From: a virus | Length of the DNA stretch: 27,321 bases | Reading direction: 5' to 3' (one strand) | IMG/VR virus record: IMGVR_UViG_3300045009_000450 | Location: 1 to 27,321 of that record | Shown here: positions 4,948 to 5,625 of the stretch, in pieces | Position numbering within the stretch: position 1 is the first letter of the stretch | Layout of the letters: each line of letters starts with the position of its first letter | Made by a program: the position numbers and the translations under genes | Notes under the pieces: generated by a model | What the model saw: only the letters and a program-made list of their open reading frames with translations | Database searches by the model: none | What the model was told of the DNA's origin: nothing

Positions 4948-5052
4948 CTTAAGGAAGGATCTTGGAATAAGATACGTCTTTGGAGTTGGGAAAAAATCAA
5001 GGCAGAACTGGACAAATGCGATATGCTTTGTGCTAACTGTCACCGCGAACTC
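4948..5052 (+). pseudogene. Remnant of an HNH homing endonuclease between tRNA genes
   Basis: In frame from 4948 the sequence reads LKEGSWNKIRLWSWEKIKAE and then LDKCDMLCANCHREL. The W-x-K-I-x-x-E-L-x-K-C-x-x-L-C-x-x-C-H-R-E pattern is the C-terminal half of HNH endonucleases, with the zinc CxxC and the HNH histidine. There is no start codon of its own: it begins right at the 3' end of tRNA-Arg and runs into a tRNA-like 3' half. The N-terminal part of the enzyme is missing, so it is a fossil of a homing endonuclease that invaded the tRNA cluster. GC content is higher than in neighbouring protein genes. Confidence 0.65.
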
Positions 5053-5096
5053 CTTACAAGTGGTAAGTCTCTGGTTCGAATCCAGCCTGAGTCGTT
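5053..5096 (+). pseudogene. Candidate orphan tRNA 3' half (Val-TAC-like anticodon loop)
   Basis: After the HNH remnant comes CTTACAA (possible anticodon loop, TAC), GTGGT as a 3' anticodon strand, a T arm CTGG-TTCGAAT-CCAG, and an acceptor-like CTGAGTC. No matching 5' acceptor strand (GACTCAG) is found upstream. The anticodon stem with the preceding bases pairs poorly. Probably a tRNA whose 5' half was lost together with most of the HNH gene. Confidence 0.4.
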
Positions 5097-5185: not shown

Positions 5186-5267
5186 GGAGAATAGCACCGA
5201 TGGTCGGTAAATCGTCTTGAAAACGATGCCAGATGAAAGTCTGATAGTTCGATTCTATTATTCTCCG
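5186..5267 (+). tRNA. tRNA-Ser (anticodon TGA)
   Basis: Acceptor GGAGAAT/ATTCTCC, short D arm CCG/CGG, anticodon stem ATCGT/ACGAT with loop CTTGAAA (anticodon TGA), long variable arm (AGA...TCT) as expected for serine, T arm GATAG-TTCGATT-CTATT, discriminator G. Confidence 0.93.
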
Positions 5268-5268
5268 T

Positions 5269-5297
5269 TTGACATCATAAAAAATATTTGCTACTAT
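5269..5297 (+). promoter_or_regulatory. Sigma-70 promoter of the tmRNA gene (TTGACA-17-TACTAT)
   Basis: TTGACA (5269-5274), 17-nt spacer, TACTAT (5292-5297). It begins two bases after the tRNA-Ser discriminator; the predicted start at about 5304 is the 5' end of the tmRNA acceptor piece. Confidence 0.75.
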
Positions 5298-5303
5298 ATA
5301 AAG

Positions 5304-5554
5304 AGTTGAAGAGATTGGAAAGTCTGATGAGTTGCACGAGAGTTCGAATCTCTCCAGATCCATTACTTGGGTCTGCTCTGGAATCGACAGTTCATCAAGG
5401 TTCTAATTGTTGACGCAACAAACAAACAAACGCAAACAACATTGTTGCATTCACTCGTCAACCAGTATTGGTTTGACTCTAAAAGAGTGAAAGGGGTTAT
5501 AAGTTTCCTTTTTACCCAAAACTTACAAGAAGGTGTAATGCCTTCTATTTTTTT
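5304..5554 (+). ncRNA. ssrA: Circularly permuted two-piece tmRNA
   Basis: Transfer-messenger RNA, which rescues stalled ribosomes by acting as tRNA-Ala and then as mRNA. The acceptor piece comes first: T arm GAGAG-TTCGAAT-CTCTC (5338-5354) and 3' acceptor strand CAGATCC plus A73 (5355-5362). A 6-nt spacer (TTACTT) follows. The coding piece starts GGGTCTG (5369-5375), pairing with CAGATCC including the G3-U70 pair that AlaRS requires, then CTCTGGAATCGACAG, the tmRNA D-loop-like signature. P2 links the pieces: 5391-5397 with 5325-5331, and 5401-5408 with 5313-5320. After hairpin TTGTTG-ACG-CAACAA (5407-5421) the tag frame 5432-5476 encodes ANNIVAFTRQPVLV and TGA. Then hairpin ACTCT-AAA-AGAGT, an H-type pseudoknot (5494-5497 with 5514-5517; 5500-5506 with 5519-5525) and a terminator. 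The permuted order is that of marine cyanobacteria. CCA is not encoded. Confidence 0.9.
5528..5554 (+). terminator. Intrinsic terminator of the tmRNA gene
   Basis: AGAAGG (5528-5533), loop TGTAATG, CCTTCT (5541-5546), then A and seven T. It directly precedes tRNA-Thr. Confidence 0.85.
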
Positions 5555-5625
5555 ACCCTATAAGCATTGTGGTGATGCAGCAGTTTTGTAAACTGCAGAG
5601 ATTGGTTCAATTCCGATATAGGGTT
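5555..5625 (+). tRNA. tRNA-Thr (anticodon TGT)
   Basis: Acceptor ACCCTAT/ATAGGGT, D stem GCAT/ATGC with a short loop containing GG, anticodon stem GCAGT/ACTGC with loop TTTGTAA (anticodon TGT), 4-nt variable loop, T arm ATTGG-TTCAATT-CCGAT, discriminator T. Odd points: position 8 is A instead of U, the first pair is A-U, and the gene starts one base after the terminator T tract. Confidence 0.85.

Follow-up and report, generated by a model that had tools for sequence, protein, structure and literature searches.

Why phages carry genes for tmRNA is an unanswered question, for which a 2022 survey offers two proposals, namely that a hijacked translation machinery is maintained or that host proteins are marked so that they can be recycled (PMC9004378). 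This question is raised by a locus in the stretch of DNA analysed here (the window), which spans the whole of a 27,321-base IMG/VR virus record and whose closest annotated relatives are Synechococcus myophages. Its tRNA array includes a tmRNA gene whose tag ends in -VLV rather than -VAA, which is the most unusual feature of the locus and was absent from an earlier, sequence-only reading of the same DNA. Because such endings are almost never altered in hosts but repeatedly altered in phages, within narrow limits, they make the purpose of phage tmRNA testable by reporter assay.

Our results confirm that positions 5288-5544 (+ strand, as for all features below) hold a circularly permuted, cyanobacterial-type tmRNA gene encoded by the phage, as covariance models, covariation and relatives agree. 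The Rfam model cyano_tmRNA (RF01851) matches this segment with 95.0 bits (E 1.1e-24; gathering cut-off 70), and tmRNA_permuted (RF04321) matches positions 5313-5476 with 58.8 bits (E 3.3e-9; cut-off 47). The sequence-only reading had proposed such a gene and suggested running both the cyano_tmRNA model and ARAGORN. While the model bore the proposal out, ARAGORN listed five tRNAs in the window and missed the tmRNA gene, which lies between tRNA-Ser (ending at 5267) and tRNA-Thr (starting at 5555); neither did it return a call for the closest relatives, found on contigs L337, L324 and L057. ARAGORN is thus unsuitable as a sole detector, and surveys based on it overlook some phage tmRNAs. A chance match is ruled out by the E value of the cyano_tmRNA hit and by the slid and shuffled pairing controls described below. 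The kind of gene is already published, with two-piece tmRNAs of marine phages, cyanophages among them, featuring in PMC9004378.

The gene has the permuted order of its class, in which, by sequence and Rfam alignment, the T-arm and the acceptor 3' strand lie upstream of the acceptor 5' strand and the tag. Directly 3' of tRNA-Ser, a sigma-70-like promoter is predicted at 5269-5297, with a TTGACA box (5269-5274) placed 17 nt before TACTAT (5292-5297); it shares 10/12 positions with the consensus and recurs in the near-identical contig L337, being a consensus match of a type that mildly exceeds chance (5 promoter-like matches found versus 1.6 expected). The 5' strand of P2 (5313-5334) forms 17 pairs with its 3' strand (5388-5408), 17/17 of them standard in the Rfam alignment; in the alignment of 27 genes described below, pairing in helices 1 and 2 reaches 96-98%, and two-sided changes are numerous. 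Between these strands lie the T-arm GAGAG TTCGAAT CTCTC (5338-5354) and the acceptor 3' strand CAGATCC with discriminator A73 (5355-5362), to which no CCA is added in the encoded sequence. An intervening segment, TTACTT (5363-5368), whose removal by tRNA-processing enzymes is presumed, separates it from the acceptor 5' strand GGGTCTG (5369-5375), the start of the coding piece. Across this spacer, 7/7 pairs form between 5355-5361 and 5369-5375, and the AlaRS identity signal is intact, with G3-U70 corresponding to G5371-T5359 and A73 to A5362. Upstream of the tag, a hairpin TTGTTG-ACG-CAACAA (5407-5421) overlaps the two outermost P2 pairs. The sequence-only reading was right about its existence but took its presence in place of a first pseudoknot to be unusual; the lack of this pseudoknot is the norm for the class, as two-piece tmRNAs of cyanobacterial hosts have one transient pseudoknot (PMC1242208), and is therefore no special feature of the gene. 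The tag reading frame, ANNIVAFTRQPVLV followed by TGA (5432-5476), starts with the resume codon GCA (5432-5434) and was delimited by alignment with host and phage tags. Its last codons and the stop codon are held in a post-tag hairpin, P5 (5457-5477), which most relatives keep with a different sequence. There follow a pseudoknot (5487-5525; stem 1, 5487-5495 with 5507-5515; stem 2, 5500-5506 with 5519-5525) and an intrinsic terminator, AGAAGGT-GTAAT-GCCTTCT with a T run (5528-5554). All coordinates of the sequence-only reading hold, as do its acceptor stem with G3-U70 and A73, its P2, and the promoter, tag frame, post-tag hairpin, pseudoknot and terminator that it had described.

Most of these stems are supported by compensatory changes among relatives. 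When 37 named pairs drawn from the window structure were followed through an alignment of 27 phage and host genes, 94.8% were paired, and two-sided changes occurred in 131 cells, compared with 36.0 +/- 5.1 in shuffled alignments, none of which reached 131 (0/500). Sliding the partners reduced pairing to 50-56%. The acceptor stem and the T-arm were 100% paired, the latter with two-sided changes in 5/5 pairs and the former with G3-U70 in all sequences; in the window, two acceptor pairs deviate in both strands from the common GGGGATG/CATCTCC form, with pairing kept. The columns of pseudoknot stem 1, a region shifted by MAFFT, were weak (82% paired), and the pseudoknot was examined sequence by sequence instead, in a qualitative search that also returned some alternative pairings. 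Stem 2, TAAGTTT with AAACTTA in the window, appeared in relatives as TAACA/TGTTA, AGTCA/TGACT, GATCA/TGATC, GGTTA/TAACC or CGACT/AGTCG. Among the relatives compared, structural conservation thus extends to P2, the pseudoknot and the post-tag hairpin. In a wider sample, G3-U70 together with A73 was kept in 93/94 distinct viral and 97/97 host genes, the lone exception (L116) being a mis-parse by our script, which took the T-arm of an adjacent tRNA.

This sample was assembled from pattern scans of viral contigs, the first of which was too strict and gave one match, combined with a script requiring a T-arm, acceptor pairing and TCGAC. It comprises 94 distinct cyanobacterial-type genes and 35 distinct permuted genes that belong to other types and have a tag. 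For hosts, we used 201 genomes of one picocyanobacterial family together with a genome scan, and 97 distinct genes and tags were read; RF01851 matches 171/201 of these genomes, mostly with 285-329 bits. Compared with these host genes (Prochlorococcus, marine Synechococcus), the window shares the permuted order, the acceptor stem with G3-U70 and A73, P2, a tag start of the ANNIV/ANKIV type, the post-tag hairpin, the pseudoknot and the terminator, but it scores about 95 bits, as do genes similar to it, is shorter and has a different pre-tag hairpin. The tags differ as well, with 14 residues and -VLV in the window as opposed to 16 residues and -VAA in hosts (for example ANNIVRFSRQAAPVAA). Host tags are all 16 residues long, and 96/97 end in AA and one in LA, whereas the 94 cyanophage-type tags end in AA (26), TA (24), LV (19), AV (11), TV (9), SV (2) or, once each, PA, VA and LA. 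Their last residue is Ala in 53 and Val in 41 cases and nothing else; Thr is frequent at the penultimate position and never last. A scan with a tag-free pattern found an AA end in 11/37 genes. Counted per distinct tag sequence, AA occurs in 8/49 viral versus 14/15 host tags (Fisher p 9e-8, uncorrected for relatedness), and among the other viral permuted tmRNAs it was called heuristically in 31/35.

In the group ending in -LV, Leu is encoded by TTG, TTA, CTA or CTT and Val by GTT or GTA, and while the window has these codons inside the post-tag hairpin, they lie past this hairpin in L094 and within a different one in L322. As the codons vary synonymously and -LV is kept in differing local RNA structures, the peptide end itself appears to be under selection. 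An assembly error or frameshift can be dismissed as the source of the odd end, because the same end recurs in L337 and L324 and similar ones in many contigs, and because a length of 14 residues is also found in S-CAM. An AA end is usual but not defining for cyano_tmRNA, and the -VLV of the window leaves its membership unaffected, given that an unusual tag end is on record elsewhere, for the tmRNA of Carsonella (PMC4131195). Counted from the second Ala, phage tags range from 14 to 25 residues. ARAGORN starts many of them 21 nt further upstream in frame, adding a 7-residue N-terminal extension for which the window has no corresponding insert; this extension accompanies the long tags, such as ANNIVAFSRILTREFARTDELVTA, of L098, L103, L138, L511 (S-SSM7) and their relatives. 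Another subclass, in L322 (1529-1755), L338 (8584-8831), L344 and L057 (3310-3557), carries the tag ANKIVAFSRTSVPSLV or ANKIVAFSRTSLPSLV; here the post-tag pseudoknot has apparently been lost, and a terminator hairpin comes soon after the tag. Within the searchable literature on cyanophage tmRNA tags, which largely excludes subscription journals, the divergence of tag ends in phages is not discussed, so that the altered ending seems to be a new point. The window thus holds a genuine gene of an established kind, whose unusual tag end forms part of a broader pattern that is apparently undescribed.

The descent of the gene was addressed with a maximum-likelihood tree built from the tRNA-like and pre-tag parts (175 columns; 86 phage and 23 host rows). 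All 86 phage rows form one clade apart from the 23 host rows (100/100), which marks the gene as an old phage lineage, probably acquired long ago from a picocyanobacterium and a phage gene since. The sequence-only reading had regarded the gene as probably taken from a host; this may be true of the deep past, but recent capture is excluded by the single phage clade and by the score of about 95 bits compared with 285-329 in hosts. The window groups with L337, L324 and L057 (98/100) on a long branch (0.52). At a minimum, the tree requires 26 changes of the terminal dipeptide and 8 of the Ala/Val difference, counts that are approximate given the short alignment, the rough bootstrap values and visible recombination within the gene. 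L337 carries the same gene and tag as the window, L324 (tag ANKIVAFTRQSVLV) and L057 close versions of the gene. L338 shares flanking DNA with the window, in pieces mostly 72-99% identical, but a different tmRNA allele occupies the corresponding site of its tRNA array; in L057, an acceptor half similar to that of the window is followed by a tag and 3' end resembling those of L322. Judging from this allele swap at a shared site and from the mosaic, the tmRNA gene is exchanged between phages.

On these grounds, we consider it probable that this gene of a T4-like cyanophage produces a working ribosome-rescue RNA, which would rely on AlaRS, SmpB and RNases of the host and write a retuned, probably weaker, proteolysis tag. 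Host tRNA-processing enzymes would probably cut the transcript at the 6-nt spacer, yielding an acceptor piece (about 5304-5362), to which CCA would be added afterwards, and a coding piece starting at 5369, the two being held together by the acceptor stem and P2. We infer this cleavage from the precedent of Prochlorococcus, whose tmRNA appears as two separate molecules on Northern blots (PMC1242208). Once host AlaRS has charged it with alanine and host SmpB has bound, the RNA would then enter ribosomes that have stalled on broken mRNA, a situation likely to arise often while the phage drives degradation of host messages, and add the 14-residue tag before normal termination; that it may act in trans-translation is suggested by the full conservation of all parts. 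Neither the window nor any of 20 tmRNA-bearing phage records (most of them fragments, several of about 200 kb or longer) yielded an SmpB, and those 20 records also lacked ClpP, which argues against phage-encoded partners and suggests that host factors are required. The tag retains the N-terminal part of the host tag, and selection may maintain a hydrophobic end still recognised by host proteases, though probably less efficiently or through another pathway. Why the altered ending would matter can be seen from E. coli, where the rate of degradation is set by the final three residues of the tag, AAV and ASV being weaker than LAA and LVA (PMC9097571). In this way, the phage would benefit from recycled ribosomes and at the same time retune what happens to tagged proteins. 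More tentatively, cyanophages may collectively have rewritten the tag of a two-piece tmRNA that has long been their own, with ends such as -LV, -AV, -TV and -TA and with N- and C-terminal extensions, so that its products are handled by proteases in a way unlike the host's. If true, a virus would uncouple ribosome recycling from host quality-control proteolysis or redirect the latter.

With moderate confidence, we favour a retuned tag over one that has merely drifted or a decoy. The diversity of phage tag ends and lengths, set against the constancy of hosts, would also fit a functional tmRNA for which only ribosome release matters, so that selection on the tag ending is relaxed and the protease signal drifts. 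This seems unlikely, as the variation is tightly bounded: the last residue is Ala or Val in 94/94 distinct genes; Thr, which is as reachable from an Ala codon as Val and common at the penultimate position, never takes its place; and -LV persists despite synonymous change. For 4-8 independent changes, the chance of obtaining Val every time would be about 0.01 to 0.0002 (at kappa 4, the count being taken from a short RNA tree).

Two further readings would deny the RNA a role in tagging. A decoy might compete for SmpB and AlaRS and inhibit host trans-translation, as reported for an RNA of mycobacteriophage DS6A that consists only of a tRNA-like domain (PMC4131195, PMC11915505); the reduced and divergent structure is in line with this idea, and so is the lack of SmpB in the phage records checked, which means that host SmpB must be shared. 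However, a decoy would have no need for the tag frame, resume codon, stop codon, P5 and pseudoknot, all conserved with compensatory changes, and we regard it as highly improbable. The prospect of a degenerate passenger, left unexpressed or non-functional in the tRNA array, is similarly slim. The long branch of the window clade resembles that of a decaying gene and, like the missing ARAGORN call, speaks against a working tmRNA, and tRNA arrays do gather fragments, the unannotated positions 4950-5096 of the window being an example; yet base pairing is intact with compensatory changes, a promoter and a terminator are present, and the same gene is found in L337 and L324 and kept in many independent phage contigs and isolates.

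Like the OM43 phage Melnitz, the window represents an aquatic phage with a permuted tmRNA gene of its own. In the 2022 survey, 53/133 unique phage tmRNAs are two-piece, nearly all of them aquatic, and cyanophage genes appear in its tree (PMC9004378). The tmRNA of Melnitz differs in being of the alphaproteobacterial type and under a glutamine riboswitch, and the survey relied on ARAGORN, which is blind to the window gene; its accessible text does not mention tag endings (PMC9004378). A tmRNA database of 2025 lists 79 unique phage sequences (PMC11915505). The same cyanobacterial-type gene is carried by the isolates S-CAM1/S-CAM3, S-SSM7, Sf-FS3, S-CRM01 and S-CBWM1 and the single-cell virus AG-345-P14, whose records contain no close match to the window gene. 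Isolated cyanophages follow the trend towards altered endings too (S-CAM, -TVAA; S-SSM7, -ELVTA; Sf-FS3, -ELATA; S-CRM01, -LVAAL; S-CBWM1, -VSCA); the tag of AG-345-P14 ends in -QLATA, and -VLV occurs in none of these. Their tmRNA genes are mostly unannotated, and several go under the label 'hypothetical protein'; in S-CAM3 (KU686198, T040910_205) and S-SSM7 (GU071098, SSSM7_025), such an annotation covers part of the tmRNA.

Some related phages have a complete tRNA gene inside the intervening segment, between the 3' and 5' acceptor strands: tRNA-Tyr in L029, L044, L046, L035, L189 and L088, where the contig end falls inside the gene, and tRNA-Asn in L138, L145 and L180. A single transcript would therefore give a tRNA and both tmRNA pieces. 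A tRNA-Ala inside a permuted tmRNA, nominally archaeal, has been called unique (PMC11915505). Other RNA elements above their Rfam cut-offs are a wcaG motif in S-CAM1 (L002, 5607-5703) and an abiF match in L057 (1658-1694). Between tRNA-Arg and tRNA-Pro of the window, the unannotated positions 4950-5096 contain a short frame with DKCDMLCANCHREL, which resembles an HNH nuclease terminus, and after it the T-arm-like GGTTCGAATCC; a Pfam search with this frame gave no match, and the segment is perhaps what is left of a nuclease and of half a tRNA. At 2424-2864, the window also encodes a SegE-like GIY-YIG endonuclease (Pfam, 180 bits), which adjoins ribonucleotide reductase genes.
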